From positions 1 through 38,809 of the forward strand of contig CALLAL010000033.1 in assembly GCA_938002255.1 (NCBI GenBank): a stretch of DNA of 38,809 nucleotides, given 5' to 3'. This document shows positions 7,087 through 38,809 of the stretch, one piece after another. The stretch comes from an uncultured bacterium. Lineage in GTDB: Bacteria; Desulfobacterota; BSN033; UBA1163. The number at the start of each line of letters is the position of its first letter. Within the stretch, counting starts at the first letter, position 1. The position numbers and the translations under genes were made by a program. Under the pieces are notes generated by a model. The model saw nothing but the letters and a program-made list of their open reading frames with translations. It ran no database searches and had not been told where the DNA came from.

Positions 7087-7773
7087 ACGGATTCCGTCTT
7101 GATCATTGAAGATGAAAAAGATATTGCCGATTTAGTCGAATATCATTTGAAGCAATCAGGGTTTCAGGTGATCCAAGCCTATGACGGTCCTTCGGGCCTT
7201 GAGAAAGCAAAAAAGGGGCGACCCAAATTGATCATTCTGGACTTGATGCTTCCAGAGATGGATGGAAGGGATGTCTGTCGGGCCCTCAAATCCAATCCTC
7301 TCACCCAATCCATTCCCATCGTCATGCTAACTGCCAAAGCCGAAGAAGTGGATCGTATTGTTGGGTTTGAATTGGGGGCAGACGATTACGTCACCAAACC
7401 CTTCAACCCAAGGGAATTAGTCCTGAGAGTCAAAGCCATTCTTCGGAGGAAAGAATCCCCTCAAGAGGGAAATAAATATTATCAGGCGGGCGAGCTCGTG
7501 ATCGATGTGGATCGCCACCTTGTTACGCTTCAAGGAAAACCCATCCCCTTGACGACGACTGAATTCAAGCTTCTTTATGAATTGGTTTGTAACCGGGGGC
7601 GAGTGAAAACCCGGAACTACCTCTTGGATAGGGTTTGGGGATATACGTATGAGGGGTATGCCCGAACCGTGGATACCCATATCCGGAGACTGAGAGAGAA
7701 GCTGGGTTCGATGGGGGATTGGATTGAGACGATCCGGGGCGTGGGATACCGGTTTCGTGAAGAGGAAGAATGA
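7087..7773 (+). CDS. PhoB-like OmpR-family response regulator (paralogue A)
   Basis: Receiver domain (phospho-acceptor Asp52 in LIILDLMLPEMDG, Lys in VTKPF) plus a winged-helix DNA-binding domain ending GVGYRF. Proposed start is ACG 7087. AGGGGGTG (7072-7079) lies 7 nt upstream, and from here the protein is 228 residues and aligns residue for residue with the second regulator of this window, whose ATG sits at the same place. In-frame alternatives are TTG 7099 (too far from the ribosome site) and TTG 7009 (inside the dehydrogenase gene). The stop overlaps the kinase start (ATGA), so the pair is a co-translated two-component system of PhoB/PhoR type. The regulator role is firm, the phosphate link is inferred. 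Confidence 0.9.
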   Translation, partial: TDSVLIIEDEKDIADLVEYHLKQSGFQVIQAYDGPSGLEKAKKGRPKLIILDLMLPEMDGRDVCRALKSNPLTQSIPIVMLTAKAEEVDRIVGFELGADDYVTKPFNPRELVLRVKAILRRKESPQEGNKYYQAGELVIDVDRHLVTLQGKPIPLTTTEFKLLYELVCNRGRVKTRNYLLDRVWGYTYEGYARTVDTHIRRLREKLGSMGDWIETIRGVGYRFREEEE

Positions 7774-9071
7774 ATCGAACCATCTCTTGGAAGATCTTTG
7801 CCCTTGTGCTTTCCTTGCTCCTCTGTTTTCTCCTGCTTCAGAGTGTGCTGATTCTTCTTGTCGAGAAGCCCTTTCTTCAAGCCACCCTCTTGAGCTTCAT
7901 CATCATTGCCTCGTTGGCTTTTCTCATCCCAAAGAGATTCCTCCAGTGGATTCAATCGGAGTATACCAAAAGGCTCGAAACGGTGAATTCTGCTTGGGAA
8001 AAAACCGTTCAACAAATCTCCAGAGAAAGGGATAACCTTCAGAAGGTTCTCAATGAAATGACAGAAGGTGTCCTCGTGGTAGACGAGAGGAACCGAATTC
8101 GTATGGTGAATGACGCTTTAAAAACCCTATTTTCCCTTCCACAAGAGATACTTGGAAAATCACTTCTTGAGATTATTCGCCATTCAGAATTGGAGGAAGC
8201 AGCCCGACAAACCATCGAGACCGGCAAAAGTAAAACTTTCGAATTGACCCTTCCTTCCTCATCTCAAAAGTCCTTCGAGGTCAATGTGGTTCCTATGATC
8301 TCAGCTTGGAGGGATCATTCAGGAGACACCAAAGGATATGGCGCGATGGTGGTGTTCCATGACATTAGTCGCCTTAAGGAATTAGAGAGGATTCGCCAAG
8401 ATTTTGTTGCCAACGTCTCACACGAATTACGAACGCCTTTGACGACCATCAAAGGATATGCTGAAACCCTTCTTGAAGGAGCATTAAAAGAAGAAAGCGC
8501 TCCTTCTTTCGTTCAGGTGATCCTGAAACACACCGATCGTTTAACGAAGATCGTCGAAGATCTCCTCATGATCTCAAAAATTGAATCCCAAGAGTCCCAA
8601 TTATCTCTGGAACCCCTTTCCCTTTCGGAAATCCTTGAAGAAACCCTCGAGGTGGTTGCAGAGAATGCCAAAAAAAAGAAAATTCCTATCATCACATCAG
8701 GTCTTCCAGACTCGCTCCTGGTGAAGGCTGACCGAAAATATTTGGAGCAGATCCTTATTAACCTTCTCGATAATGCCATCAAATATAATCGTGAGGGGGG
8801 TAAAATTGTTATCTCCGCAACCTTGACTCCTCAGAACGACGTGGAAGTGGCCATTCAAGACAATGGCATTGGAATCCCCAAGGAAGATATACCTAGGATC
8901 TTCGAAAGGTTTTACCGTGTTGATAAAGGACGATCCAAAGAATTGGGAGGAACTGGCTTAGGCCTGTCCATTGTCAAGCATCTCGTCCAAGCCCAAGGAG
9001 GTAAGGTTTGGGCGGAGAGTCAACCTGGAGAAGGATCAACCTTCTACTTCACGCTACCCTCCCCGCGTTAA
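7770..9071 (+). CDS. PhoR-like membrane sensor histidine kinase
   Basis: A 433-residue kinase with two N-terminal membrane segments (about 7-31 and 36-55) and almost no periplasmic loop, as in PhoR. It continues with a short linker, a PAS domain (about 88-205), HisKA with His218 in ANVSHELRTPL, and HATPase_c with LLDNAIKYN, DNGIGIP and GTGLGLSIV. The tiny periplasmic part argues for sensing through another membrane protein, as PhoR does with PstSCAB-PhoU, though no pst or phoU gene lies here. It is translationally coupled to the regulator before it and overlaps the convergent ACT gene by 4 bp. Confidence 0.9.
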   Translation: MNRTISWKIFALVLSLLLCFLLLQSVLILLVEKPFLQATLLSFIIIASLAFLIPKRFLQWIQSEYTKRLETVNSAWEKTVQQISRERDNLQKVLNEMTEGVLVVDERNRIRMVNDALKTLFSLPQEILGKSLLEIIRHSELEEAARQTIETGKSKTFELTLPSSSQKSFEVNVVPMISAWRDHSGDTKGYGAMVVFHDISRLKELERIRQDFVANVSHELRTPLTTIKGYAETLLEGALKEESAPSFVQVILKHTDRLTKIVEDLLMISKIESQESQLSLEPLSLSEILEETLEVVAENAKKKKIPIITSGLPDSLLVKADRKYLEQILINLLDNAIKYNREGGKIVISATLTPQNDVEVAIQDNGIGIPKEDIPRIFERFYRVDKGRSKELGGTGLGLSIVKHLVQAQGGKVWAESQPGEGSTFYFTLPSPR

Positions 9072-11539: not shown

Positions 11540-12226
11540 TTACTCTTCGATCTCCCGAAATCGATAGCCCACTCCCCGAATCGTTTCAATCCAATCTCCC
11601 ATGGCACCCAGTTTATCCCTCAGTCGCCGAATATGGGTATCAACGGTCCGGGCATACCCCTCATAGGTATATCCCCAAACTTTATCTAATAAATTTTCAC
11701 GGGTAAACACACGCCCTTTTTTCGAAACCAGCGTCACCAAAAGTTTGAACTCCGTATGCGTTAGAGAAACGGGAGTCTGATTCACAGAGACTTGGTGACG
11801 TTCAAAATCAATCAGAAGCCCCCCGATTTGAATATGAGGTTCTTCTTCATTCATAGGTTCCTTGCGTTTTAAAATGGCCTTCACTCTTAATACTAACTCC
11901 CGGGGGCTAAAGGGTTTGGTCACATAATCCTCTGCGCCCAATTCAAACCCAACAATCCGATCTAATTCCTCTGCCCTGGCGGTTAGCATGAGAATGGGAA
12001 TTTTCTGAGTCTGGGGATCAGCCTTCAGTGCCCGGCAGATATCCTTTCCATCCATATCAGGAAGCATCAAATCCAGGATAATAAGCTTAGGGCGAAGTTT
12101 CTTGACCTGCTCCAGCGCGGAAGCCCCATCAGAAACAGCCCGTACGGGAAATCCCGCTTGCTTAAACTGGAATTCAATGAGCCGTGAAATATCCGCCTCG
12201 TCTTCCACAATTAAGATGGGGTTCAT
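11540..12226 (-). CDS. PhoB-like OmpR-family response regulator (paralogue B, orphan)
   Basis: A 228-residue regulator: receiver with Asp52 in LIILDLMLPDMDG and VTKPF, then a winged-helix domain. The recognition region (WGYTYEGYARTVDTHIRR) is identical to that of paralogue A, so both should bind the same DNA sites. No kinase is directly coupled; the two kinases of the block at 7770 and 10034 are candidates. Its own upstream DNA carries a five-unit 11-bp repeat array of Pho-box type with a TAGAGT -10, suggesting autoregulation as known for phoB. It may be the true PhoB of this organism, which is inference. Confidence 0.9.
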   Translation of the reverse strand: MNPILIVEDEADISRLIEFQFKQAGFPVRAVSDGASALEQVKKLRPKLIILDLMLPDMDGKDICRALKADPQTQKIPILMLTARAEELDRIVGFELGAEDYVTKPFSPRELVLRVKAILKRKEPMNEEEPHIQIGGLLIDFERHQVSVNQTPVSLTHTEFKLLVTLVSKKGRVFTRENLLDKVWGYTYEGYARTVDTHIRRLRDKLGAMGDWIETIRGVGYRFREIEE

Positions 12227-12431: not shown

Positions 12432-12498
12432 ACTCTAACGTAACTCCGTTACAAACAGGTTTAGGTTTTGTTAATTTTTCGTTACAGGTTTGTAGGGA
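12432..12498 (-). promoter_or_regulatory. Five-unit Pho-box-like array with -10 before the PhoB-like regulator
   Basis: On the plus strand GT-starting heptamers occur at 12448, 12459, 12470, 12481 and 12492, an exact 11-bp period. Read on the coding (minus) strand they are TCCCTAC, CTGTAAC, AATTAAC, CCTAAAC and TTGTAAC, each with a 4-bp spacer. Ten bp after the last unit is TAGAGT (12437-12432), 4 of 6 to TATAAT. This is the spacing of PhoB-activated promoters. The predicted leader is about 200 nt. Confidence 0.6.
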
Positions 12499-25553: not shown

Positions 25554-26510
25554 ATGGCTCGCAGGAAAATTCTCTTCATCGGCGGATCGTTGAATCAAAC
25601 GACCATGATGCATCAGATTGCCCAACACCTATCGGACTATGAATGTTTTTTTACACCTTTTTACGCCGATGGCCTGGTCGGCTACGCAGCCAAAAGAGGC
25701 TGGGCGAATTTCTCCATTCTGGGGGGGCCGATGAAGCAGTCAACCGAAGCCTATTTAGAACAGTACCGACTTCCAATAGATCGTGGGGGAGCAAGTCACT
25801 CCTATGATTTAGTTCTTACCGGTTCAGACCTTCTGATTCAGAAAAACATCAAAAATAAAAAAATCATTCTTGTCCAGGAAGGAATGACAGACCCTGAAAA
25901 CCTCATGTATCATTTGGTGAAATGGTTCAAGCTACCCCGATTTTTCGCGAGCACCTCGACCAATGGTCTGTCCAATGCCTACCACCGGTTCTGTGTCGCT
26001 TCGGAAGGGTACAAGGAGTTGTTCACCCGAAAAGGGGCTGATCCTTCCAAAATCGTTGTCACGGGCATCCCGAATTTCGATAACGCCATCCAATATCTCG
26101 ACAACCCCTTTCCATATCGACATTATGTGCTGGTTGCGACGTCTGATGCCCGGGAAACCTTTAAATGGGATAATCGAAAAAGATGGATCAAACAGGCATT
26201 AAAAATTGCAAACGGGCGACAAGTGATTTTTAAGTTGCATCCTAATGAGAAGGTCAAAAGGGCAACCCAAGAAATCTTATCCCTGGCACCCGAGGCCCTG
26301 ATCTTCCCCGATGGAAACACCAATCATATGATTGCAAATTGTGATGTGCTCATCACCCAATATTCCTCAGTGGTCTATATCGGTCTTGCTCTCGGGAAAG
26401 AGGTCCATTCGTATTTTGACCTAAAGATGCTCAAACGCTTACTCCCGATCCAGAACGGAGGAACCTCTGCAAAGAGGATTGCAGATCTCTGCAAAGAGGT
26501 TTTGGATTAA
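25554..26510 (+). CDS. GT-B-like transferase, CDP-glycerol/capsule transferase-related
   Basis: A 318-residue cytoplasmic protein, first of a rightward operon, with GAGGAAAG before the ATG. Two Rossmann-like halves: the N-terminal half opens KILFIGGSLNQTTMM; the C-terminal half has FKLHPNEK (about residues 225-232) and NCDVLITQYSSVVYIGLALG (about 264-283). This HPNE plus Ser-Ser-rich loop pattern is seen in CDP-glycerol glycerophosphotransferases, polysialyltransferases and capsule transferases that use a CMP- or CDP-linked donor. With a cytidylyltransferase next in line, it may transfer the CMP-activated product of this operon. Acceptor unknown. Confidence 0.65.
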   Translation: MARRKILFIGGSLNQTTMMHQIAQHLSDYECFFTPFYADGLVGYAAKRGWANFSILGGPMKQSTEAYLEQYRLPIDRGGASHSYDLVLTGSDLLIQKNIKNKKIILVQEGMTDPENLMYHLVKWFKLPRFFASTSTNGLSNAYHRFCVASEGYKELFTRKGADPSKIVVTGIPNFDNAIQYLDNPFPYRHYVLVATSDARETFKWDNRKRWIKQALKIANGRQVIFKLHPNEKVKRATQEILSLAPEALIFPDGNTNHMIANCDVLITQYSSVVYIGLALGKEVHSYFDLKMLKRLLPIQNGGTSAKRIADLCKEVLD

Positions 26511-26528
26511 ATGGAAAGGAAACCAGAG

Positions 26529-27365
26529 ATGAATATCGTGATTGTGATTCAGACCCGGTGTGGTTCGACTCGATTCCCTCAAAAAGTCTTAATGCCCGTG
26601 CTTGGTAAACCTCTTTTCGTTCGGATGGTTGAGCGCGTTCAACGGGCCACCCTGTATCATCGGATTGTTGTGGCCACGACCTGGCTGCCTGAAGACGATG
26701 TGATCCAGGGCATCTGTGAACAGGAGGGATTCGATTGTTTCCGCGGCCATCCGACCGATCTCCTGGATCGACACTACCAGGCCGCTCTGCAATCCAGAGC
26801 CACCGCCATGGTCAAGATTCCTTCTGATTGTCCCTTGATTGATCCGGGGATCATCGATCAGGTGTTGAGATTTTATATCGACCATCGGGGGTTTTTCGAT
26901 TATGTGAGCAACCTTCACCCTCCCACGTTCCCTGATGGTAACGACGTCGAGGTCGTTTCGTTTGATGCTTTAGAAATCGCATGGACAGAAGCACGAAAAG
27001 ATTTTGAGCGGGAACACACCACTCCATTCCTCTGGGATCAACCTGAACGCTTCAGAATCGGCAATGTCTTCTGGGATGCGGAACGGGACTATTCCAAGAC
27101 GCACCGATGGACAATTGACTATGAAGAAGATTATCACCTGATCAAATCGATTTATGAAGTGCTCTATCCTCAAAACCCCGACTTTGGGCTCTATGAGATC
27201 CTCGATCTCCTCAACCGAAGGCCGGACCTTCGATGCCTGAATCATCAATATCTCGGAGACAGTTGGATCAAACATCATCTGGGCAGTCTGAAGACGATCT
27301 CCCAAAAGCCCTCCATGACGAGGGTAAGGGATCCTTGGGACCATGGGATCGTCTCTCAGAACTGA
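26529..27365 (+). CDS. SpsF/CMP-sugar-type cytidylyltransferase
   Basis: A nucleotidyltransferase of about 278 residues from ATG 26529 (GGAAAGG upstream; ATG 26511, directly after the previous stop, is the alternative). It opens IVIVIQTRCGSTRFPQKVL, the CTP-binding signature of acylneuraminate cytidylyltransferase and SpsF-like enzymes, and has KIPSDCPLIDP for metal and sugar contacts. It should activate a 3-deoxy-2-ketoacid or a related sugar with CTP. With a NeuB-like synthase in the same operon a CMP-nonulosonate is the likely product. The exact sugar is unknown. Confidence 0.82.
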   Translation: MNIVIVIQTRCGSTRFPQKVLMPVLGKPLFVRMVERVQRATLYHRIVVATTWLPEDDVIQGICEQEGFDCFRGHPTDLLDRHYQAALQSRATAMVKIPSDCPLIDPGIIDQVLRFYIDHRGFFDYVSNLHPPTFPDGNDVEVVSFDALEIAWTEARKDFEREHTTPFLWDQPERFRIGNVFWDAERDYSKTHRWTIDYEEDYHLIKSIYEVLYPQNPDFGLYEILDLLNRRPDLRCLNHQYLGDSWIKHHLGSLKTISQKPSMTRVRDPWDHGIVSQN

Positions 27366-27387
27366 AGCAGAAAGGAGTCGATGAACG

Positions 27388-28251
27388 GTGTATCCTTCCA
27401 TGACATCCATCCATCCCCCTTCTGGTGATTTCTCCTTAACCTACGAGGAGATTCAGCGTCTGAAAGCAAGGTCCTTTGAAGTGAGAAAATATGTCCTCCA
27501 AATGGCATCCAGGGGAGGCTGTTTCGTAGGCGCTTCCCTCTCCTGTGTGGACTTACTGGTTTATCTCTATTCAAAATTTCTTAGGATTTCAAAAAACTCT
27601 CTGGGGGATCCCAACCGTGATTATTTCTTTTTATCAAAGGGACATGCGGTACCCGCCCTCTACGGACTTTTTGCTGTCCTTGGTTTTTTAGATCCACAAC
27701 GATTGGAGAATCATCTTAAACCCAACGACTTTATCTACTGGCACCCCAACCGGAATATTCCAGGAATTGAATTTCATTCAGGTTCCTTGGGCCATTTATT
27801 GCCGATCGCCGTTGGAGTTGCCCTCGATTGCAAATTGAGAGGTCAGAGCAACCGCGTGGTCGTGCTTCTTGGCGATGGAGAATTGGATGAAGGCTCAAAT
27901 TGGGAAGCCTGTCTGATCGCCCAAGCCTATCGCCTCGATCATCTGATTCTGGTCGTGGATCGAAACGGATTTCAGGCCAACGCACCGACCGAAGCCCTGA
28001 TCCCTCTTGACCCTCTCGAAAAAAAATTTCAAGCCTTTGGGCTTTCGGAAACGACCATTGATGGACACAGCTTTATTGAAATGGAGAGAACTTTTTATAA
28101 AATTCCATTTGATCCAGGAATGCCAAACGTGGTCATTGCGGAAACGACCCGTGGCAAGGGGGTCCCCAGTCTCGAAGAGAGAGTAGATCGCTGGTTTTGT
28201 AAACTCTCTGGCGAAGAAGTGGAGCAGTTCATTCAGGAGCTTTATGGATGA
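27388..28251 (+). CDS. Transketolase-like N-terminal subunit (ThDP-binding)
   Basis: A 287-residue ThDP-dependent subunit, start GTG 27388 after AAAGGAG (ATG 27400 is further away). It holds the diphosphate motif GDGELDEGSNWEA with the later Asn (VVDRNGFQ), and FLSKGHAVPALY with the active-site His. It covers only the first half of transketolase; the next gene supplies the second. Split transketolases move a two-carbon ketol unit between sugars. Being embedded in a sugar-biosynthesis operon, this one probably builds or trims a dedicated ketose rather than serving the pentose phosphate pathway. Overlaps the next gene by 4 bp. Confidence 0.87.
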   Translation: MYPSMTSIHPPSGDFSLTYEEIQRLKARSFEVRKYVLQMASRGGCFVGASLSCVDLLVYLYSKFLRISKNSLGDPNRDYFFLSKGHAVPALYGLFAVLGFLDPQRLENHLKPNDFIYWHPNRNIPGIEFHSGSLGHLLPIAVGVALDCKLRGQSNRVVVLLGDGELDEGSNWEACLIAQAYRLDHLILVVDRNGFQANAPTEALIPLDPLEKKFQAFGLSETTIDGHSFIEMERTFYKIPFDPGMPNVVIAETTRGKGVPSLEERVDRWFCKLSGEEVEQFIQELYG

Positions 28252-29150
28252 ATTATGAGGAATGGCTGACAGCCGTCACCCTGACCGATGACCGATATGT
28301 GGTGTTGACAGCAGAAAACCGCGCAGCAATTCGGAATCTTCCGGAGGTCCTCGGAGACCGATTCATTGATACAGGAATTACAGAACAGGCCCTCATTGGA
28401 ATCGCCACAGGCCTTGCCCTTCGTGGAAGAATTCCAATCGTCCATGGCCTTGCCTCCTTTTTGACCCTCCGGGCCTATGAATTTATCCGAACCGATGTGG
28501 GGATGACCAATCTACCCGTCAAACTCGTGGGGAGCATTCCTGGTTTCCTTTCCGAGGGAAACGGCCCCACCCATCAATCGCTTGAGGATGTGGCGCTCAT
28601 GCGATCAATTCCAAACATGAGGGTCTTCTGTCCGAGCGATGAACAGGATATGATTCTTGGACTCCAGACCATTCTTCCCGATCCCTCCCCCTGGTATATT
28701 CGACACAATCCTCTTCCTTCACCCGTCAACCATGCCCCTTTTGAAATCGGCAAGGCAGAGGTGATCGCGGAAGGAAGCGAGGTGACGCTTCTCGTTTATG
28801 GAATGCTTTTCGAGCAGGCACTCATCGCTTACCAGCTTCTCCAACAGCAAGAAATGTCCGTGGGGTTGGTTAATGTTCGGACCATCAAACCCATTGATGA
28901 AGAAACCCTCCTGAAAGTTGCCCTCCAAACTCCCTGGATTGTCACACTGGAAGACCATTTCCTGACCGGCGGGCTTTTCTCAATCGTTGCCGAACTCTTT
29001 GTAAGACACCGATTATCCTGTCACGTTTTGCCCTTAGCTCTGGAAGGAAGAGGGTTTCATCCCGGTTCCCTTCCAGATCCTCTTTACCAGGAGGAGATGA
29101 CAGCAGAACAGATGGTCCAAAAAATACTTCATACCCTGAGGAGGAATTAA
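28248..29150 (+). CDS. Transketolase-like C-terminal subunit
   Basis: A 300-residue partner of the preceding subunit, with the pyrimidine-binding domain (catalytic Glu in DTGITEQALIG, about residue 46) and a C-terminal transketolase domain (VNVRTIKPIDEETLLK...EDHFLTGG). Together the two make an alpha2beta2-type enzyme. ATG overlaps the previous stop (ATGA), so equal amounts are expected. The stop is directly followed by the aminotransferase ATG, preceded by GAGGAGG. Confidence 0.87.
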   Translation: MNYEEWLTAVTLTDDRYVVLTAENRAAIRNLPEVLGDRFIDTGITEQALIGIATGLALRGRIPIVHGLASFLTLRAYEFIRTDVGMTNLPVKLVGSIPGFLSEGNGPTHQSLEDVALMRSIPNMRVFCPSDEQDMILGLQTILPDPSPWYIRHNPLPSPVNHAPFEIGKAEVIAEGSEVTLLVYGMLFEQALIAYQLLQQQEMSVGLVNVRTIKPIDEETLLKVALQTPWIVTLEDHFLTGGLFSIVAELFVRHRLSCHVLPLALEGRGFHPGSLPDPLYQEEMTAEQMVQKILHTLRRN

Positions 29151-30581
29151 ATGTCAGATCAAATCGGACTTAACGCTTTATATCCTGACATTCGAGAATC
29201 GGATCGGCTTTACAGGCGTGCCCTGGGACTTATTCCATGTGTGACGCAAACGCTGGCAAAGGGCCCTTCACAATATGTGAAGGGAGTGGCTCCAAAATTT
29301 TTGGCCCGGGGCCGTGGATCTCATGTCTGGGATGTCGACGAAAATGAATATATTGATCTCAACATGGCTATTGGCCCTGTTTCATTGGGGTATGCCTATG
29401 AGGCAGTCGATCAAGCCATCCGGAGGCAACTGGAGGATGGCATAACCTTTTCCTTGATGCACCCCCTCGAGGTGGAAGTCGCCGAACAAATTCGGGAGAT
29501 CATCCCCAATGCGGAATCGGTACGTTTCAGCAAGACAGGTGCGGAGGTCACCAGTGCCGCCATCCGTCTGGCAAGGGCCTATACGGGTCGAGAGAAGATT
29601 CTCTGTTGCGGTTATCATGGTTGGCATGACTGGTACATCGGTATCACCGACCGGAAGCGCGGGGTTCCAGAATGCCTTCAAAAGCTTATCTGCGCTTTCC
29701 AATATAATGAGATTCAAACCCTCCGGGATGCACTGGACGATCAGGTGGCGTGTGTCATCCTTGAACCCGTTCTATTCGATCCTCCAAAAGATCACTTTCT
29801 CCATCAGGTTGCTGAGCTCTGCAAAAACAACGGATCCCTTCTCATTTTCGATGAAATGTGGACGGGGTTTCGCCTGGCTTTGGGAGGGGCACAGGAATAT
29901 TTCGGGATTCAACCGGATTTAGCCTGTTATTCCAAGGCGGTGGCGAATGGCATGCCGCTTTCAATCTTAACGGGGAAAAGGGAAATCATGGAGTTACTTG
30001 AAAAAGAGGTCTTTTTCTTCACCACCTTCGGAGGCGAAGCGCTCTCCCTGGCTGCAGCCTTGGCAACCCTTTATGAAATGAAAACCAAAAATGTTCTTTC
30101 CCATATCGCCAGGCAGGGTAAAAAACTGAAGGATGGATATAATCAGATCGCTCAAACCTTGAAGATGAACTATACCCAATGCATAGGGTACGATTGTCGA
30201 AGCATGATCCTTTTTGACCCCTCTGCCGGCAACCCTCTGGAGATGAAGTCCCTTGTACAGCAGGAGATGATCAGGAGGGGGATTCTCTGGGCAGGATTCC
30301 ATAATGTCTGTTTTTCCCATACGGACGACGATGTGGAGGTCACTCTGGAGGCCTACCGACAGGTTTTGCCGATTTTGAAAGAGGCTGTGTCAACCCAAAC
30401 GGTAAGACGTCTTCTCAGGGGTGAAGTGGTCGAACCCGTCTTTAGGAAGACCCATCAGGTTTATTCCCCAGTCATAGAAAAAAAAACACCTCCCTCCTCC
30501 CAACCCTGTCCTCCCCTACCGACTCGACGTCCTTCGGATATCCAATGGGAAATCCAAAAGAATGACCATCGAGGAGGGTGA
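29151..30581 (+). CDS. Class III PLP aminotransferase, GSA-aminomutase-like
   Basis: A 476-residue pyridoxal phosphate enzyme of the glutamate-1-semialdehyde aminomutase type. PLP contacts: FSKTGAEVTSAAIRLARAYTG (shown in part), CCGYHGWHDWY, the Asp in FDEMWTGFR, and the Schiff-base Lys in CYSKAVANGMPLS. A true HemL is shorter, and a position between transketolase and SDR genes points to transamination (or amino migration) of a keto sugar. The last 50 or so residues are a Pro-rich tail (SPVIEKKTPPSSQPCPPLP) not usual for the family, probably disordered. Confidence 0.87.
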   Translation: MSDQIGLNALYPDIRESDRLYRRALGLIPCVTQTLAKGPSQYVKGVAPKFLARGRGSHVWDVDENEYIDLNMAIGPVSLGYAYEAVDQAIRRQLEDGITFSLMHPLEVEVAEQIREIIPNAESVRFSKTGAEVTSAAIRLARAYTGREKILCCGYHGWHDWYIGITDRKRGVPECLQKLICAFQYNEIQTLRDALDDQVACVILEPVLFDPPKDHFLHQVAELCKNNGSLLIFDEMWTGFRLALGGAQEYFGIQPDLACYSKAVANGMPLSILTGKREIMELLEKEVFFFTTFGGEALSLAAALATLYEMKTKNVLSHIARQGKKLKDGYNQIAQTLKMNYTQCIGYDCRSMILFDPSAGNPLEMKSLVQQEMIRRGILWAGFHNVCFSHTDDDVEVTLEAYRQVLPILKEAVSTQTVRRLLRGEVVEPVFRKTHQVYSPVIEKKTPPSSQPCPPLPTRRPSDIQWEIQKNDHRGG

Positions 30582-30584
30582 TCC

Positions 30585-31391
30585 ATGGAATCCCCCTTTT
30601 CATTAAAGGATAAAGTGGCTGTGGTGACGGGAGGGCTCGGCCTTTTGGGAAAACAACATTGCGATGCCCTTTCGGAATTCGGGGCCCATGTGGTCGTTTG
30701 TGATCTTAACGAGGATCAGTGCCGGGCCTTTGCAAAGACACTTTCCACAGAATCAATCGGCATCGGAATCGATGTCACTGATCCAGAAACGATTAAAACC
30801 CTTGTCAAACGTGTTCTCTCTGAATATGGACGTATCGATATTCTGATCAATAATGCTGCGGTCAATGACGCCTTTGAGTCCCCTGCCCTTTCTCTTCAGA
30901 CTTCAAGGCTTGAACATTACCCACTCTCGATGTGGCAGAAAATCATGGAAGTCAATGTGACGGGCGTTTTCTTATGTTCTCAGATCATTGGAACCCAGAT
31001 GATGAAGCAGGGAAAGGGAAGTATCATTAATATCGCCTCCACCTACGGAATGGTTGGGCCCGATCAATCGATTTATCGATCTCCTGAAGGTCAGCAAACC
31101 TTCTTTAAATCTCCAGCCTATGCTGCAAGTAAAGGGGCCATTCTCGCATTGACAAGGTTCTTGGCTACCACCTGGGGAGCAACTGGCGTCCGAGTCAATG
31201 CTCTTACACCAGGGGGCGTGGAGAATCATCAGGAAGGATTCTTTATTCAGAACTATTCCCTCAAAACACCCCTGGGACGCATGGCAAGGGTAGATGATTT
31301 TAAAGGTGCCATTATCTTTTTAGCCAGTGACGCCTCCGACTATATGACAGGAGCCAACCTGGTCATTGATGGAGGCTGGACAGCCTGGTGA
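30585..31391 (+). CDS. Short-chain dehydrogenase/reductase
   Basis: A 268-residue classical SDR with NAD(P)-binding TGGLGLLG (about 16-23), NNAA (about 89), catalytic Ser in NIASTYG, and YAASK. The C terminus IDGGWTAW is typical. It oxidises or reduces a hydroxyl or keto group, here probably on the sugar made by this operon. It lies 3 bp after the aminotransferase gene with GGAGGGTG as ribosome site. Confidence 0.9.
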   Translation: MESPFSLKDKVAVVTGGLGLLGKQHCDALSEFGAHVVVCDLNEDQCRAFAKTLSTESIGIGIDVTDPETIKTLVKRVLSEYGRIDILINNAAVNDAFESPALSLQTSRLEHYPLSMWQKIMEVNVTGVFLCSQIIGTQMMKQGKGSIINIASTYGMVGPDQSIYRSPEGQQTFFKSPAYAASKGAILALTRFLATTWGATGVRVNALTPGGVENHQEGFFIQNYSLKTPLGRMARVDDFKGAIIFLASDASDYMTGANLVIDGGWTAW

Positions 31392-31421
31392 CGTAAACCC
31401 AAATCAAAAAGGAGACCACAT

Positions 31422-32354
31422 ATGAATACCAGTATGGGTATGAGAAAAATAAGGGTTCACTCTCATTGGATAGGGGATGGAGAGCCGGTCTTTGTGATCG
31501 CAGAAATTGGAATCAATCACAACGGTTCGCTCGACATCGCTAAAAAATTGATCGACGGCGCGATCTTTGCCGGTTGTAATGCAGTAAAATTCCAGAAAAG
31601 GACTCCTCTCCTTGCTGTTCCAAAACATCAGTGGTTTATTGAACGCGATACCCCTTGGGGACGCATGACCTATATCGACTATCGGAAGAAAATAGAATTT
31701 GAAATGGAGGAGTACAAAGAGATTGACCGTTACTGTCGGCTCCGCGGAATTCTCTGGTTTGCTTCTTGCTGGGACGAGGTGGCCCTCGATTTCATGGAAC
31801 GGTTTGATCCTCCCCTCTACAAAGTCCCATCTGCCTGTTTGACTGACAGGCGTCTTCTCCTCCGAATGAGATCAACTGGAAAACCGATCATCCTGTCTAC
31901 CGGCATGTCTACCGAAGAAGAAATTGAGGAAGCCGTAAAGATCATTGGGCAGGACCGTTTGCTGATTGCCCATACCACGTCGTCCTATCCTTGCAGATTG
32001 GAAGAGTTAAATCTGCGAATGATTCTGACCCTCAAAGAGAGGTTTCCTTTGAATCCAATTGGGTATTCAGGCCATGAAACAGGTCTGGTTCCTACCTGGG
32101 CAGCCGTGACGATGGGAGCTTCTTTTGTTGAAAGGCACATCACTCTTGATCGGGCGATGTGGGGAACCGACCAGGCCGCCTCTGTCGAAATCATTGGGCT
32201 TCATCGGTTGGTTTCCAATATTCGAGATATCGAAAAGTCTTTAGGAGACGGAATCAAAAGAGTTTATGAAAGTGAGTTAGAAGTGCGAAAAAAGCTTCGA
32301 CGCGCCCGGGTGGTGCATGAAGAGAGAACAGAGCCAGAGGTCTCTCTTCAATGA
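31422..32354 (+). CDS. NeuB-like nonulosonate synthase lacking the SAF domain
   Basis: A 310-residue PEP-condensing TIM barrel of the sialic/legionaminic/pseudaminic acid synthase family. Signatures: VIAEIGINHNGSLDIAKKLI, AGCNAVKFQKR, LSTGMSTEEEI, HTTSSYP, IGYSGHE, and ERHITLDRAMWGTDQAAS. Family enzymes are near 345 residues with a C-terminal antifreeze-like SAF domain that covers the active site of the partner subunit; here the protein stops soon after the barrel (RKKLRRARVV...). KVPSACLTD replaces the usual KIGSGD-type stretch. A different acceptor sugar is therefore likely. AAGGAGACC precedes the ATG. Confidence 0.88.
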   Translation: MNTSMGMRKIRVHSHWIGDGEPVFVIAEIGINHNGSLDIAKKLIDGAIFAGCNAVKFQKRTPLLAVPKHQWFIERDTPWGRMTYIDYRKKIEFEMEEYKEIDRYCRLRGILWFASCWDEVALDFMERFDPPLYKVPSACLTDRRLLLRMRSTGKPIILSTGMSTEEEIEEAVKIIGQDRLLIAHTTSSYPCRLEELNLRMILTLKERFPLNPIGYSGHETGLVPTWAAVTMGASFVERHITLDRAMWGTDQAASVEIIGLHRLVSNIRDIEKSLGDGIKRVYESELEVRKKLRRARVVHEERTEPEVSLQ

Positions 32355-32689
32355 ACCCCAAAGGTGCGGGAGGAATTACGGATTGGTGTTTTCTCTTTTT
32401 AGCAGGACTTTTTGAAATTGGGTGGATCATCAGCCTCAAATATACCCATGGCTTTACCCGATGGTTTCCCATAGTTTTTTATGTGGTGTTTGGTGCAGGG
32501 GCCGCCTATTTTCTTTCTTTGGCCTTAAGATCTCTGCCCTTAAGTCTGACCTATGCCATCTGGATGGGCATCGGCATCACGGGAAGCAACCTTGTTAGCA
32601 TAACCCTCTTCAAAGAGTCTTATTCCTTCCTGCAGGTCTTCTTTATTCTCATGATCCTTTGCGGAATCATTGGATTACGATTTTCTTAG
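32351..32689 (+). CDS. SMR-family transporter, Gdx/SugE-like
   Basis: A 112-residue protein with four membrane helices. The stretch AGLFEIGWIISLKYTHGFTR, with the conserved Glu of helix 1, and YAIWMGIGITGSNLV match the Gdx (SugE) branch of small multidrug resistance proteins, known as guanidinium exporters. Its ATG overlaps the NeuB-like stop (ATGA), so it belongs to the sugar operon. SMR-like proteins also flip lipid-linked sugars, but those resemble ArnE/ArnF rather than Gdx. The N-terminal dozen residues are longer than in Gdx. Export of a metabolite or side product is possible. Confidence 0.83.
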   Translation: MNPKGAGGITDWCFLFLAGLFEIGWIISLKYTHGFTRWFPIVFYVVFGAGAAYFLSLALRSLPLSLTYAIWMGIGITGSNLVSITLFKESYSFLQVFFILMILCGIIGLRFS

Positions 32690-33020: not shown

Positions 33021-34232
33021 TCATGTCCCCTTCAGGGCAACTCGGTTCCGCAACCGGTAACGCCATGTCCAGATCCTCGCTTCAGAATAGGGAGATAGGA
33101 TTGTATTTTCCCCTATCACAAATCGCTTTCCCCGCCAGACAACCGTATGATTCAGGACCGATAGGAACCACACCAGCCCGATCAGGATGTCTTTCACAGG
33201 GGAGAAGAAATAAGCAAGGGGATGGAGTGGAACCTGAATCTTTTCCCCAAGATAATAATCGCCAGCTCCTTTGATCAGGCTTGTAGAAACAATCAGGATA
33301 ATCGATCTTTGGGAAATACCCTCAACCAGCAAGGAGGCGAGGGAGAAAAGTACAGGATTGCCGAGGAGTTCCAAAAGATATTTGACTCGCAGGATTTTCC
33401 AGCGCATCTTGCCCCATCTAAGATGCCTGTTCAGAAATCGCTTTAGCCCCCAATATTCATTCACATTGCTGATCAGATAATTCGAAAGAACCACCTTCTG
33501 TCCCCGTTCCTTGATTTTTTCTCCAATAAAATGGTCTTCGGCAAGAATATCTTTGACCGCCCGGAGACCTCCAATGGCTTCCAGATCTTTCTTCCTCATG
33601 AGCATCGATTTCCCGATGACACAGGGGATCTTCAGGAATTTTTGCAGGAGGCAGACGTTTCCAAGAACGAAGGAATTCAAATGAAGATTTTCGAAGAGGG
33701 ATCCAAGTGTCTTGGCACCTACCCCCCTGATCAGGTTGGTGACCAGACCGGTTTGAGGGTCTTTCATGGGCTGAATGATCTTCTTTAAGTAGTCTTGCTC
33801 CACCATGACATTGCTGTCACTGATCAGCAGGTAGGGATATCGGGCTTTCCGATAGGCTGGAAGCATGTTGTTCACTTTTGGATTCCATCCTTCTTCACAT
33901 TCCTCGATCGTGATAGACATTTCCTTTTCCGGAAATTTCTCCTTAATCTTCTGAACCACCCGATAGGCTGGGTCATTTGGATCCTGCAGGGAAAAGAGGA
34001 TCTCAAACCTGGAATAGTCCTGATTACAAAAACTGGCTAAGTTATCGAAGAGATGATCATCCAGGCCATTAAGAGGTTTTAAGATAGAAATCGGAGGACA
34101 AAATGGTGTCGAGTCCAATTCCGGATCCTCCCGGTGTTGACTTTTTATATAGGACCGGACGGCTAAAATCTGAAGACCAAATCCGATCAATCCCAAAAAG
34201 GTAAAAGCACTAATGATCCAAAAAAAATCCAT
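33021..34232 (-). CDS. GT21-type membrane glycosyltransferase (lipid glycosyltransferase)
   Basis: A 403-residue GT-A enzyme of the ceramide glucosyltransferase family: N-terminal membrane helix (about 3-25), PPISILKPLNGLDD, donor site LLISDSNVMV (the D-x-D-like Asp), and NRHLRWGKMRW (the Q/R-xx-RW motif), then several C-terminal membrane helices. Bacterial members glycosylate diacylglycerol, ceramide or hopanoids. GGAGGG precedes the ATG, and the PHP gene lies 18 bp upstream. Because that pair sits behind a Pho-type promoter, I infer a phosphate-free glycolipid made when phosphate is short. Hopanoid glycosylation (HpnI type) is the alternative, but no hopanoid gene is near. Confidence 0.83.
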   Translation of the reverse strand: MDFFWIISAFTFLGLIGFGLQILAVRSYIKSQHREDPELDSTPFCPPISILKPLNGLDDHLFDNLASFCNQDYSRFEILFSLQDPNDPAYRVVQKIKEKFPEKEMSITIEECEEGWNPKVNNMLPAYRKARYPYLLISDSNVMVEQDYLKKIIQPMKDPQTGLVTNLIRGVGAKTLGSLFENLHLNSFVLGNVCLLQKFLKIPCVIGKSMLMRKKDLEAIGGLRAVKDILAEDHFIGEKIKERGQKVVLSNYLISNVNEYWGLKRFLNRHLRWGKMRWKILRVKYLLELLGNPVLFSLASLLVEGISQRSIILIVSTSLIKGAGDYYLGEKIQVPLHPLAYFFSPVKDILIGLVWFLSVLNHTVVWRGKRFVIGENTILSPYSEARIWTWRYRLRNRVALKGT

Positions 34233-34250: not shown

Positions 34251-34955
34251 TCACCAGGGAGTTCCATTCCGAAAAAGGGTAATGGCAACACCCCGATTGT
34301 ATCGAATACATTTTTTAATGGCCTTGATCTCCTTCTCGCAGTTGAGCATGGTTTTCCAGGAATAGAGATGCCTGGCTCGATGAAAATCGCTGCCAGCAAT
34401 ATAAGGATATTTCTTCAGGCTGATAACATTGAACACATCGTCCCGGTTGGCAATTTCCCAGGCATCGATAAAGGGTGCATACTTCTCTCGGTGGGTCCAA
34501 AGATAGAGGGTATCGATGGCCATCAATTCAGAGGAATGATGAGGGTGACAGGCGATGATCAGAGCATCTTGTTTTTTCGCTTCCAGGAAAATCTTCTCAA
34601 ACTCCCATTCGGCTGAGATAAATGTTTTCAGGTCAATCAAAAGCACATGGGCAGATTGTCTGGAAGAAAGAGAACTTTTAGTAATTTCTACTCCTGGAAG
34701 CACGAGCATTCCATACCGGTCCCAGGCTCGTTTCGCTTCTTCCTGGATGTGGAGCAGGTAATCAGGAAAATGACTTTCCTGCACAGAAAATCTGAAACGA
34801 TTGGCCATCTTACCATAAGTCGTTTTACCATTGACCACATGGTCTGTGATGGCAATCACGTCAAATCCTGCCTGACCGAAGAGATCGATCGTCCTTCTCA
34901 ATTCAATAGATCCATCTGAATATCTCGTATGAATATGAAAATCACACAACAGCAT
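34251..34955 (-). CDS. PHP-domain metal-dependent phosphoesterase
   Basis: A 234-residue hydrolase of the polymerase and histidinol phosphatase fold. Metal ligands: FHIHTRYSDG (His7, His9, Asp14), ITDHV, LPGVEIT, CHPHHSS, and GSDFHRARH. It should cleave a phosphate mono- or diester. Known members act on histidinol phosphate, pAp, and (PhnPP of Eggerthella lenta) the ribosyl cyclic phosphate made by C-P lyase. Its ATG lies about 2 nt after the predicted transcription start of a Pho-type promoter, with no Shine-Dalgarno, so a leaderless mRNA is predicted. It is co-oriented with the GT21-like gene (18 bp). The substrate is open: PhnP substitute or lipid-linked phosphoester. Confidence 0.85.
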   Translation of the reverse strand: MLLCDFHIHTRYSDGSIELRRTIDLFGQAGFDVIAITDHVVNGKTTYGKMANRFRFSVQESHFPDYLLHIQEEAKRAWDRYGMLVLPGVEITKSSLSSRQSAHVLLIDLKTFISAEWEFEKIFLEAKKQDALIIACHPHHSSELMAIDTLYLWTHREKYAPFIDAWEIANRDDVFNVISLKKYPYIAGSDFHRARHLYSWKTMLNCEKEIKAIKKCIRYNRGVAITLFRNGTPW

Positions 34956-34963
34956 TAATTGAG

Positions 34964-34997
34964 ATTATACGTGAGAATTGTTACAGAATGATGAAAA
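34964..34997 (-). promoter_or_regulatory. Pho-box promoter of the PHP/GT21 unit
   Basis: On the minus strand TTTTCAT (34997-34991) and CTGTAAC (34986-34980) are 4 bp apart. Ten bp after the second comes a perfect TATAAT (34969-34964). CTGTAAC is 6 of 7 to CTGTCAC. No -35 is visible, as expected where PhoB replaces it. The start point would fall at about 34957, next to the ATG at 34955. Confidence 0.7.
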
Positions 34998-35081: not shown

Positions 35082-35831
35082 TTATCGGTGGTTTTGAGGA
35101 TCAAAATCGGCATCGGTCAATCCTGCATTTAAGATAAGGTTTTCGTATCCGTAATCCCCGAATAATCTGTTTTCAAAATCAAAGACCTGGACCCGAATCG
35201 GAATTTTCTTCTCTTGATCGAAACTCAGGAGGGCTCGATAACAATAATAACCATTTCGGGTTTCTTTCGGAAAACGTGCTTCTACAGTCAATGCTTTTCG
35301 TCCAAAAAGCATCTCTTCCTTGTCGAGTCGGTACTCCAGCTCCCCGGATGCCCAGCCCTTTCGGAAATTATCTCCAAATAGTTTGATTAAATTTTCCAGT
35401 CCGATCTCCGTAATCGGGTGGCGGCTTCCCTGCATGGCTAAAGGCCCCAGAGGATTCAAGTTTAAAATGATGGTTCCCCAGGCCCCAGGTTCGCGGACCA
35501 GGATCCGGTTTTTGTTCCAACCCTCGACATAAAAAATCTCTCTTCCCTTTCCAGGTCCATCGATCCATTTCATATGGACCTTAAAAGGTTTTTTAAATCG
35601 GAGAAAGACGGTCTCTTTTGTTTTTAAAAAATCTTTGATTCGCTCCTGTTTGTGAAAAATCGCAATGTAGGACTCGGTCTTCTCGATTAGGGTTTCAGCC
35701 TGCTGGAGCCAACTCTTTAGACAAAAAAATTCCTGACTATAGGAATCAGAAGAATCCAAAACAGTAAAAAGTGGAAAGACTAAACCAATGAGGATCGCGT
35801 ACAAAAAGAATTTGCAAGGATAAAATTTCAT
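35082..35831 (-). CDS. Secreted DUF1571-like protein
   Basis: A 249-residue protein with a signal peptide (about 1-32, ending SSDSYSQ). It has the DUF1571 pattern: Y-x-A-x-F-x-KQER, VFLRFKKPFKVHMKW, GPGKGREIFYVEG and N-x-I-L-V-R. The fold is probably LolA/LppX-like, an open beta barrel that could hold a lipid or hydrophobic ligand in the periplasm. No function is established for the family. It is monocistronic, between the PHP promoter and the phoA terminator, and has its own clear Pho-type promoter. There is no obvious Shine-Dalgarno. In this setting a role in envelope change under phosphate limitation is reasonable but inferred. Confidence 0.8.
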   Translation of the reverse strand: MKFYPCKFFLYAILIGLVFPLFTVLDSSDSYSQEFFCLKSWLQQAETLIEKTESYIAIFHKQERIKDFLKTKETVFLRFKKPFKVHMKWIDGPGKGREIFYVEGWNKNRILVREPGAWGTIILNLNPLGPLAMQGSRHPITEIGLENLIKLFGDNFRKGWASGELEYRLDKEEMLFGRKALTVEARFPKETRNGYYCYRALLSFDQEKKIPIRVQVFDFENRLFGDYGYENLILNAGLTDADFDPQNHR

Positions 35832-35871: not shown

Positions 35872-35916
35872 TTTATATCATTTTAAAGTGTCAAAAAGGT
35901 TACAAATAGATGATCA
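35872..35916 (-). promoter_or_regulatory. Three-unit Pho-box promoter of the DUF1571 gene
   Basis: On the minus strand TGATCAT (35916-35910), TTGTAAC (35905-35899) and TTGACAC (35894-35888) are repeated every 11 bp. Exactly 10 bp later TATAAA occurs (35877-35872). This is the clearest PhoB-type promoter in the window along with those of phoA and the PHP gene. The predicted leader is about 35 nt. Confidence 0.7.
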
Positions 35917-35929
35917 TTTCATGGCAGGT

Positions 35930-35968
35930 AAAAAAAGGAAGGGCGCCCCCAATGAGCACGCCCTTCCT
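35930..35968 (-). terminator. Intrinsic terminator of the alkaline phosphatase gene
   Basis: On the minus strand the arms AGGAAGGGCG and CGCCCTTCCT pair perfectly over 10 bp (35959-35968 and 35936-35945) and are followed directly by T7 (plus-strand A run at 35930-35936). It lies 14 bp after the phosphatase stop. Confidence 0.9.
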
Positions 35969-35981
35969 GAATCACAACGTC

Positions 35982-37493
35982 TTAGTCTCTGGGCCAGTGC
36001 CAGCCTCGGGATCTGGGTTCCAATTTGAGAGGGGATTCCATCGGTACACCTGCAGCTTCCATCATCATATGGAAAATCTGGGTGTTGTCGAGGATACGGG
36101 TCCCGGGATACCATTTCCCTTCATATTTCATAAACTTGTGGATATTGGCACCCATGGCATACATCCGGGTTAGCTCATTGGTGTGATTGGTGGAACTATA
36201 GGTCACCTCACCCTCAGGGTAAGTATAAGGCGGACCATTTTGCACCGGTAATTCCCCGGCAATGAGTTTCACCTGATTTCGCATATAACTGTTGCTGTGG
36301 TCAGAATGAACGATGAGAAGGGTGTTGCTCCAGTCCATGTCGTCGTCCGGTTGGTTCACAAAATCGATGACCCCTTGAACACCATCATGGAGATCTTTCA
36401 TGGTGCCAATCATCCGTCTAAAATCATTGCCATGGTTTGCCCAGTCAATGTCACCCTGCTCAGCGATGAGGAAGAAACCATCCGGATCCTTGCTCAGAAC
36501 TTTTAGGGCGGCAAGGGTAGCCTCTGCAAACGTGGGATTCTCCCTTGTCGCCTGGGTCACCAATGGGGTATCCGGAAGATCATGAGGAACCAATGACTCA
36601 AAATGGCCTCCTGAACCGCCAAAAAGACCAAAAAGTTTTTTACCACTGGCAGCAGCCTGTTGAGCTGCCTGAAGGATAGCGATTCCACCATCCACGCCAG
36701 TCGTTCGCGTCACCACAAGATAATCGCCATCAGCGCAGATGGCATCGTACGCCCCTTTCGAAATATAGGCTGAAGATTTCGTGTCCGAACAGCTTGAATT
36801 GGCTGGATATCCAGCACCAATGACGACATCGGGTTTAATCTCCTTTAGAATCTCTTCTGAAATGGCATGATAGTTGTTTCTGTGCTTGTTATGGCTCACA
36901 TGGGCCGCAGGAGTGGCATGACTGAAGGGCACGGTGCTCACCACACCGATGGCATAGCCTTTCAGTTCGCGAAGCCATTCCGCAATGGTTTTCAATGAAC
37001 CATTGTCCGGATCTCCGGGCAGCCAGGCGATATTTCCGTCATCCGTTTTGTAGCCAGTTGCCCAGGCCGTGGCGGCGGAGGCGGAATCTGTTGCCTTTGC
37101 AATGTGATACTCCTTTGCGCCCGGGAGTTCAGGACCCAATGGATAGGGTTTCTTTCCCCCGATCGCAGGATCATACCCACATTTAGGCTTAATGGCATTC
37201 GGATTGTAGCTTCCCTTCCCACACCAGTGTTCATAAGTGGTCACGTCCCAGGTGGCGACATTTGCCTGGTAAGGAAGTTTATGAAAAGAAAGTTCGAAGT
37301 CATTGCCATAGAGGTAGCGGCTGGCCGCAATCTCATGCTCGATGTTCATCCCGTCGCCAATGATCAGAATGATGTATTTAGCCGCCTTGGGTTGGATTCC
37401 CTTTGCTTCGACTGCAAACACAGCAAGGCATAACATCATCCACATGATGAACATGATGGATAGGGTTTGTTTGAATACGGTTCTTTTCTTCAT
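35982..37493 (-). CDS. phoA: Alkaline phosphatase, PhoA family
   Basis: A 503-residue secreted phosphatase. ATG 37493 is chosen: AGGAGGG lies 6 nt upstream and residues 1-30 then form a signal peptide (KKRTVFKQ, hydrophobic core, AVEA). Active-site elements: IGDGMN (Asp47, metal), TDSASAATAWATG with Ser137 as nucleophile, EQGDIDWANHGND and HSDHSNS for metals. It releases phosphate from organic esters outside the cytoplasm using zinc and magnesium. It carries inserts compared with E. coli PhoA (for example about 85-130 with Cys residues). It has its own Pho-type promoter and terminator, so is monocistronic. Confidence 0.93.
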   Translation of the reverse strand: MKKRTVFKQTLSIMFIMWMMLCLAVFAVEAKGIQPKAAKYIILIIGDGMNIEHEIAASRYLYGNDFELSFHKLPYQANVATWDVTTYEHWCGKGSYNPNAIKPKCGYDPAIGGKKPYPLGPELPGAKEYHIAKATDSASAATAWATGYKTDDGNIAWLPGDPDNGSLKTIAEWLRELKGYAIGVVSTVPFSHATPAAHVSHNKHRNNYHAISEEILKEIKPDVVIGAGYPANSSCSDTKSSAYISKGAYDAICADGDYLVVTRTTGVDGGIAILQAAQQAAASGKKLFGLFGGSGGHFESLVPHDLPDTPLVTQATRENPTFAEATLAALKVLSKDPDGFFLIAEQGDIDWANHGNDFRRMIGTMKDLHDGVQGVIDFVNQPDDDMDWSNTLLIVHSDHSNSYMRNQVKLIAGELPVQNGPPYTYPEGEVTYSSTNHTNELTRMYAMGANIHKFMKYEGKWYPGTRILDNTQIFHMMMEAAGVPMESPLKLEPRSRGWHWPRD

Positions 37494-37646
37494 GATACCC
37501 TCCTTTTTATTTTCTTTTTGCATACTGGCATCCCTTTGCTTCCCCTTATTCGTAAACCACTCACCTCCTTTCTTTGAATGATTTGTCTTTCTGGTTGACA
37601 TTCCGTGAATAAGGAGATTTCTGAGATGCACCCTCAACATAACTGG

Positions 37647-37696: not shown

Positions 37697-38809
37697 CTAA
37701 TCAAAATTGGACCTTTTTTTAATGAGGTAAGAATAGAATCCAGCTCCAGGAGTGGGTTTTCTTTCGAGGGTCTCATAATTGACGTTGTAAAGACCAAATC
37801 GGGCATCCAATCCTTTTAACCACTCATAGTTGTCCATCAGGGACCAGTAAAAATATCCTTGTACATTCATCCCTTTTTTAATACAGCGCTCCAGCGTATC
37901 GAGATGGCTTTTGATATACCTTTCTTTCTTTTGGCCGTCTCGCGTGGCGATCCCATTTTCTGTGATCATCATCGGAAGACCAAACTGAGAAGCCTCTCTC
38001 AGGATTTGTTCCAGACCGTTGGGGTAAATTTCCCAGCCCATATCGGTTAAGCCATATCCCTCCCTGTCTTCATATTTAAGGGCAACCCCCATCCGACGAA
38101 ATGGGTTGAATTGCAAATGGATGCGCGTATAGTAATTAACCCCCAAAAAATCTAATTTGCCCTGAATAGGAAGGTTAATTTCTATATTTTTTAAGATCGG
38201 GAATCGAAGTCTTAAATGTCCGGTCAGAAGGGCCTCCGGAAATGAACGGTTATAATATTGGTGGGCCACTTTTGAAAGGAACTGGTCCAGAGGATTCCAT
38301 CGCCAGTAGGGTGAAAAGACCACCATATTATGAGCTATACCAATCTGCACCTTAGGATTCATGGCATGGAGTAGATCGTATGCTTCTCCATGGGCACGAA
38401 GAAGATTGACAGAGGCACACACATAGGAGGTTTGATCCTTAATTCCGGGTGGCATACAGCCATCAAGGTACCCGCCCAACAGAAGCACATTCGGCTCATT
38501 GAAAGTAATCCAATATCGAACGTCTCTTAAGGCATCTGCCATCCTCTTCACATAATCCGTAAATTTCGAAATGGACCGTTCATTATGCCATGGATAGGCT
38601 TCAAGAAACCATCTCGGATGGGTGAAGTGATGGAGGGTGACCATGGGTTCAATCTGTTCCTGACGAAGAAGATAGACAATCTCCTGATACCGATGGATGG
38701 CTTTTGAGTCCCAGTGGTTTGGGGTGGGTTCAACCCTACTCCATTCAATTGAAAATCGGTAAGCATTTACCCCAATCTCTTTTAACAGTTTCAAATCTTT
38801 TTTGTAGAG
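37697..38809 (-). CDS. GH1 beta-glycosidase, N terminus outside the window
   Basis: The frame stays open to the window edge (LYKKDLKLLKEIGVNAYRFSI...), so the start lies beyond 38809; about 370 of the usual 440-450 residues are present. It is a family 1 glycoside hydrolase: acid/base Glu in WITFNEPN, nucleophile Glu in MITENGIAT, and substrate-site SIEWSRVEPT and YFYWSLMDNYEW. It is a retaining enzyme cutting beta-glucosides or beta-galactosides, probably cytoplasmic. No partner is visible; the phoA gene downstream has its own promoter. Confidence 0.92.
   Translation of the reverse strand, partial: LYKKDLKLLKEIGVNAYRFSIEWSRVEPTPNHWDSKAIHRYQEIVYLLRQEQIEPMVTLHHFTHPRWFLEAYPWHNERSISKFTDYVKRMADALRDVRYWITFNEPNVLLLGGYLDGCMPPGIKDQTSYVCASVNLLRAHGEAYDLLHAMNPKVQIGIAHNMVVFSPYWRWNPLDQFLSKVAHQYYNRSFPEALLTGHLRLRFPILKNIEINLPIQGKLDFLGVNYYTRIHLQFNPFRRMGVALKYEDREGYGLTDMGWEIYPNGLEQILREASQFGLPMMITENGIATRDGQKKERYIKSHLDTLERCIKKGMNVQGYFYWSLMDNYEWLKGLDARFGLYNVNYETLERKPTPGAGFYSYLIKKRSNFD

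Follow-up and report, generated by a model that had tools for sequence, protein, structure and literature searches.

Under phosphate limitation, the PlcP-Agt system of Pseudomonas, SAR11, and Roseobacter replaces phospholipids with glycolipids (PMC8528852, PMC8231724). In Agrobacterium and Mesorhizobium, GT21 enzymes glycosylate diacylglycerol under phosphate deprivation, and a Pho box has been predicted for the Agrobacterium pgt gene (PMC3972451, PMC8231724). The Pho box consensus of Proteobacteria is CTGTCATNNNNCTGTCAT, as quoted in PMC8528852; its 11-bp tandem repeats are common to the boxes described below, whereas its half-site is TGTCAT rather than the TGTAAC of the clade analyzed here. 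Here we describe two putative Pho promoters in a 38.8-kb stretch of DNA (referred to here, at its full length, as the window) from a member of an uncultured genus of the Desulfobacterota, a phylum indicated by its named relatives, Desulfocarbo indianensis and Candidatus Zymogenaceae. One of these promoters precedes a gene for a protein of the DUF1571 family. A Pho-controlled protein of LolA/LprG fold encoded next to a lipid glycosyltransferase would be a concrete candidate for bringing surrogate lipids from the inner membrane, where they are made, to the outer membrane during phosphate starvation, a transport step on which, to our knowledge, little has been described. DUF1571, a family of unknown function, would thereby gain a physiological condition, a fold, and partner genes; our literature searches found no paper naming DUF1571 or PF07608, nor any on the PHP domain and the Pho regulon.

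The gene in question (35082..35831, minus strand) encodes a 249-residue protein that matches PF07608 with an E value of 2.2e-44 (151.8 bits; cut-off, 27), which confirms its original assignment to DUF1571. The protein carries no other Pfam domain, and the gene is present in a single copy in the 3.27-Mb genome. On the minus strand upstream of its ATG at 35831, the repeats TGATCAT (35916-35910), TTGTAAC (35905-35899), and TTGACAC (35894-35888) start 11 bp apart, giving a Pho box of the form TGATCAT-N4-TTGTAAC-N4-TTGACAC (35888..35916, minus strand; in full, TGATCAT CTAT TTGTAAC CTTT TTGACAC), whose weakest repeat is the outermost one, TGATCAT. A 10-bp spacer (35887-35878) leads to the -10 element TATAAA (35872..35877, minus strand), and the whole promoter element lies 40 bp before the ATG. 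The minus-strand sequence thus bears out the repeats, the 11-bp period, and the TATAAA at 10 bp that had been noted earlier. The same 10-bp spacing to the -10 box is found at phoA of E. coli. A terminator-like stem-loop with a T run (35937..35959, minus strand), a pattern match of a kind whose count across the whole region is about at chance level, separates the promoter from the alkaline phosphatase gene upstream.

The pstS gene of the window's own genome is truncated by a contig end. In its congeners, the pstS promoters read CAGTAACGTTT CTGTAACATAA TTGTCAC followed after 10 bp by TAAAAT (G001), TTGTAACAGAA ATGTAACAAAT TTGTAAC followed after 10 bp by TAATTA (G008), and ATGTAAAAGAA CTGTAACGCAA ATGTAAC followed after 10 bp by TAATTT (G006 and G004). 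The half-site of the clade is therefore NTGTAAC, repeated with a period of 11 bp, with the -10 box 10 bp away, a layout that the DUF1571 site matches exactly. Searches with exact patterns and a 10-bp spacer recovered the pst promoters and missed degenerate sites. For scoring, we used a weight matrix of two half-sites and the -10 element, whose training set comprised only five pst promoter sites; since no other sites entered the training, the DUF1571 sites are independent tests of it. With this matrix, the DUF1571 site scored 18.2. The control sample consisted of 20 stretches of the same genome picked regardless of their content (364,344 bp, 722,713 scored positions), and its maximum, 12.4, lay upstream of ugpB, a classical Pho-regulon gene (UgpB was identified by an NCBIfam score of 432.8; cut-off, 411). 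Within the whole window, just two sites reached a score of at least 15, one before the DUF1571 gene and the other before the adjacent gene for a PHP-family phosphoesterase.

DUF1571 is present in 3 of the 10 genomes of the genus, and the same box arrangement was observed upstream of both other congeneric orthologues. It reads GCGTCATAAAA TTATAACCCTT TTGTAACCCTC CTGACAT followed after 10 bp by TACTAT in G008 (score, 15.1) and CTTTAACGAAA TTGTAAGGTAT CCGTAACGTGT TTGAAAT followed after 10 bp by TACGAA in G001 (9.4-10.4). The flanks of the boxes differ among these orthologues, yet the boxes are kept; moreover, the gene upstream is a different one in G008, indicating that the box stays with DUF1571 when the neighboring gene changes. 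In UBA1163 (G012), another genus of the family, the box is weak (9.1) and lies 316 bp before the start. An inverted-repeat element of the CCCCTTGGCAAGGGG type has apparently been inserted there between the weak box and the DUF1571 start (L021, ~6440-6560, minus strand).

The scan of upstream regions thus recovered the box in the two congeners and weakly in UBA1163, and inconsistently in other Desulfobacterota, Nannocystis, and planctomycetes. A lack of conservation before orthologues, named in the original prediction as grounds for refuting Pho control, was accordingly not observed among the congeners. When 39 DUF1571 upstream regions were scanned family-wide, the few low p-values were taxonomically scattered and the repeats unconvincing, and the DUF1571 genes outside the clade (in other Desulfobacterota families, Nannocystis, and planctomycetes) lack PHP, GT21, and alkaline phosphatase neighbors. 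We therefore reject a Pho link for DUF1571 as a whole: the tie to phosphate starvation proposed in the original prediction holds for one clade and not for the family.

Could the repeats have arisen without any relation to phosphate? A -10-like TATAAA is common by itself, and the site might in principle be a chance arrangement of AT-rich sequence. This is refuted statistically and its probability is negligible, because none of the 722,713 control positions scored 15 or more and the site is kept in all three congeners that have DUF1571. Half-sites in tandem, spaced by about one turn of the helix, are used by several OmpR-family regulators, and the repeats could accordingly bind another member of that family that does not respond to phosphate. 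Several congeners, however, have the same architecture before pstS, and the window's genome has it before ugpB, which makes such a regulator very improbable. Pho control of the DUF1571 gene, as had been proposed, is instead strongly supported by sequence: the site combines tandem 11-bp half-sites with the fixed -10 spacing of the clade's pst promoters, scores highly with a matrix trained on pst sites, and recurs before both congeneric orthologues. Taken alone, we consider this control very likely.

The original prediction singled out the DUF1571 box correctly and passed over a second Pho box, which precedes the neighboring PHP-GT21 operon and indicates what the function is likely to be. This box, TTTTCATCATT CTGTAAC followed after 10 bp by TATAAT (34964..34997, minus strand; score, 15.2), lies 42 bp before the start codon of the next gene after DUF1571, which encodes a PHP-family metallo-phosphoesterase (34251..34955, minus strand; PF02811, E value of 8.7e-7). 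The metal and active-site motifs HxH, TDH, GxE, HPH, and SDFH of this enzyme are intact, and its best solved relative is TM0559 (2anu; E value of 1.2e-64). A GT21 glycosyltransferase gene (33021..34232, minus strand; PF13506, E value of 9.6e-50) starts 18 bp after the PHP gene, with which it probably forms an operon; the best solved relative of its product is a ceramide glucosyltransferase (E value of 7.5e-38). The PHP box was detected in five genomes, scoring 15.2 in that of the window (G000), 20.7 in G001, 15.3 in G008, 11.9 in G011, and 15.2 in UBA1163. It lies 42 bp before the ATG in the first four of these and at a matching position in UBA1163, and GTAACA is invariant in a four-species alignment. 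A hopanoid role for the GT21 enzyme was considered and is unlikely, since its score against HpnI (TIGR03472, 265 bits) falls below the cut-off of 310 and no hopene cyclase was found in any of the 10 congeneric genomes.

PHP domains recur in the Pho regulon of this clade, as six genomes of the family (G001, G007, G008, G011, G013, and G015) encode fusions of a PHP domain with a receiver and a histidine kinase that carry Pho boxes scoring 13.6-23.7. These genes mostly adjoin PhoBR-like genes. One such PHP-receiver-HisKA-HATPase fusion of ~650 aa is encoded at L105:13269-15230 (minus strand), with others on L174, L176, L177, L178, and L179; the Pho box lies ~40-60 bp upstream, and the fusion may be an unusual Pho-regulon protein with a signaling or phosphoesterase role. 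Further Pho-box-like sites were seen before a small gene resembling arsenate reductase or low-molecular-weight phosphatase, which is divergent from a second PhoB-like regulator (L176:3896, minus strand, score of 17.0; L179:11742, plus strand, 9.2), and, in G008, before a gene for a 114-aa zinc-ribbon-like protein near pst (L103:2446, plus strand, 15.9).

Directly upstream of DUF1571 lies an alkaline phosphatase gene (35982..37640, minus strand; PF00245), whose true start is probably further in, after AAAGGAGGTGAG. The pst-trained matrix assigned it no significant Pho box; a candidate made up of TATAGG and three TCA-type repeats with an 11-bp period, partly common to G001, was discarded because its score is not significant. 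Another alkaline phosphatase paralogue and its congeners likewise showed no clear box in the upstream regions scanned. Next to the alkaline phosphatase gene at 35982..37640, a GH1 beta-glycosidase gene (37697..38809, minus strand) has a reading frame that reaches the contig end, so that its 5' end is missing. For the UBA1163 orthologue of this GH1 protein, the nearest solved relative is the Pyrococcus horikoshii beta-glucosidase 1vff, which we take to be BGPh. BGPh is membrane associated and acts on glucosides with long alkyl chains (PMC4687101).

The order of these genes varies among the genomes. GH1 adjoins the alkaline phosphatase gene in the window and in G001 and is divergent from pstS in G008, and UBA1163 has the order PhoB-PhoR-DUF1571-PssA-GH1-PHP-GT21, in which the first two genes are PhoB-like and PnpS/PhoR-like. 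The order GH1-PHP-GT21 adjoins PstS in G011, whereas in G195, which belongs to a different family, it adjoins PhoBR. The matrix detected no box in G195, which is not surprising for a genome outside the window's family. Both G011 and G195 have the module without DUF1571, which is thus not obligatory. Of the five genomes of the window's family that have the PHP-GT21 module, four also have DUF1571, against none of the 12 that lack the module (p = 0.002, ignoring kinship); for this count, GT21 was searched for across the genus, and G011 and G012 were read for it.

The window itself encodes a PnpS/PhoR-like histidine kinase (7770..9071, plus strand; NF046044, 406 bits, cut-off of 400; TIGR02966, 310.9, cut-off of 334) and a PhoB-like response regulator (11540..12226, minus strand; TIGR02154, 252 bits, cut-off of 296). 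A weak Pho-box-like site lies before the regulator at 12465 (minus strand), and strong sites (19.1 and 24.0) precede its relatives in G013 and G015, a pattern that suggests autoregulation. Two other regions of the window are mentioned here as observations only. At 10034-11215 (plus strand), a receiver domain is followed by a HATPase domain without a recognized HisKA domain. At 25554-32689 (plus strand), genes for a cytidylyltransferase, a split transketolase, a class-III aminotransferase, an SDR protein, NeuB, and a SugE/EmrE-like SMR protein form a cluster that looks like one for nonulosonic-acid-type sugar synthesis and that converges on GT21; an SMR gene is also found near GT21 in UBA1163.

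The DUF1571 protein begins with a hydrophobic signal-type segment, as read from its sequence, and no lipobox cysteine is conserved in the congeneric orthologues. According to Foldseek and VIA matches, the fold of an AF2 model built from 37 sequences (pLDDT, 88.8) is that of LolA, RseB, and LprG. The Z scores of the model were 14.5 to both RseB and a Bacteroides LolA-like protein, 11.8 to LprG, 11.6 and 11.2 to LprG with bound PIM or triacylglyceride, and 11.4 to LppX; overall, the matches span about 140-190 residues, with Z scores of 9-14.5 and sequence identities of 6-20%. The combination of a predicted LolA-like fold with an N-terminal secretion signal is that of LolA/LprG-type proteins and supports the earlier proposal of a secreted protein of lipid-binding type. 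The LprG structures hold a glycolipid or triacylglyceride.

The fold alone does not tell a carrier from a sensor, as RseB, a sensor, matches the model as well as the carriers do. A Pho-controlled DUF1571 protein might thus be an RseB-like periplasmic sensor of lipids or stress that feeds back on a PhoR-type kinase or an anti-sigma system, and RseB and MucB are indeed among the top fold matches (Z scores of 12.8-14.5). In UBA1163, moreover, DUF1571 directly follows the PhoB-PhoR-like pair, and in G034 and G134 it comes directly after a PilS-like histidine kinase and a T2SSF gene (L027:3757-6445, minus strand; L028:5077-7611, plus strand). The model, however, covers only the lipid-binding-type domain, whereas RseB chains are longer; the window and its congeners place DUF1571 with PHP-GT21 and not with a kinase, and no anti-sigma partner was seen. 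We regard a sensor as unlikely. LolA proteins are also among the top matches, and the alkaline phosphatase gene is the direct neighbor of DUF1571 in the window's genome and in G001, which would fit a Pho-induced LolA specialized for particular lipoproteins, such as phosphatases, instead of a glycolipid carrier. Yet the phosphatase gene does not adjoin DUF1571 in G008 or UBA1163, and the conserved neighbors are genes of lipid-glycosylation type and not for lipoproteins, so that this role appears less probable still.

We consider it rather likely that the Pho-switched DUF1571 protein carries lipids in the periplasm, as part of a Pho-controlled set for glycolipid remodeling that comprises GH1, PHP, GT21, and DUF1571 itself. 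What the sequence shows is the boxes and the extent to which they are conserved, the order of the genes, and the fold predicted for DUF1571; from these we infer a pathway that would start with the binding of PhoB under phosphate limitation, by which the Pho box and -10 box would switch on DUF1571. Of the two adjacent Pho promoters, one would serve DUF1571 and the other drive the PHP-GT21 operon, and together with GH1 these genes would constitute a glycolipid module induced by phosphate starvation. The PHP enzyme would probably release a lipid acceptor or phosphate, and GT21 may then glycosylate diacylglycerol (or ceramide), yielding a phosphorus-free surrogate lipid. The LolA/LprG-shaped DUF1571 protein, exported to the periplasm, would bind this lipid and carry it toward the outer membrane. 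The more specific proposal, that DUF1571 is a periplasmic carrier dedicated to surrogate glycolipids free of phosphorus, which it would deliver to the outer membrane while working with GH1-PHP-GT21 enzymes unrelated to PlcP-Agt, is tentative.

Taken together, the GT21 precedent, the PHP motifs, the GH1 relative, and the DUF1571 fold point to lipid remodeling of the PlcP-Agt type carried out by other families. With Pgt of Agrobacterium and Mesorhizobium, compared here at the family level, the locus shares a GT21 enzyme and a predicted Pho box, and, putatively, the formation of glycolipids under phosphate deprivation; it differs from Pgt in its partners, as the sections of PMC3972451 and PMC8231724 on that system describe no PHP, GH1, or DUF1571 partner. 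With PlcP-Agt it shares the pairing of a Pho-boxed metallophosphoesterase with a lipid glycosyltransferase (PMC8528852, PMC8231724), here predicted from genes: in five genomes, the sequence has a Pho-boxed operon of a phosphoesterase and a putative lipid glycosyltransferase. In place of a PlcP orthologue and a GT4 (Agt) transferase, however, the enzymes belong to PF02811 and PF13506, and the window adds a GH1 glycosidase and a secreted protein of predicted LolA fold. Having PHP and GT21 instead of PlcP and GT4, the system may thus work like PlcP-Agt without being a member of it, and the PHP-GT21 pair, if this reading is true, would be an independent answer to the PlcP-Agt problem in the Desulfobacterota.
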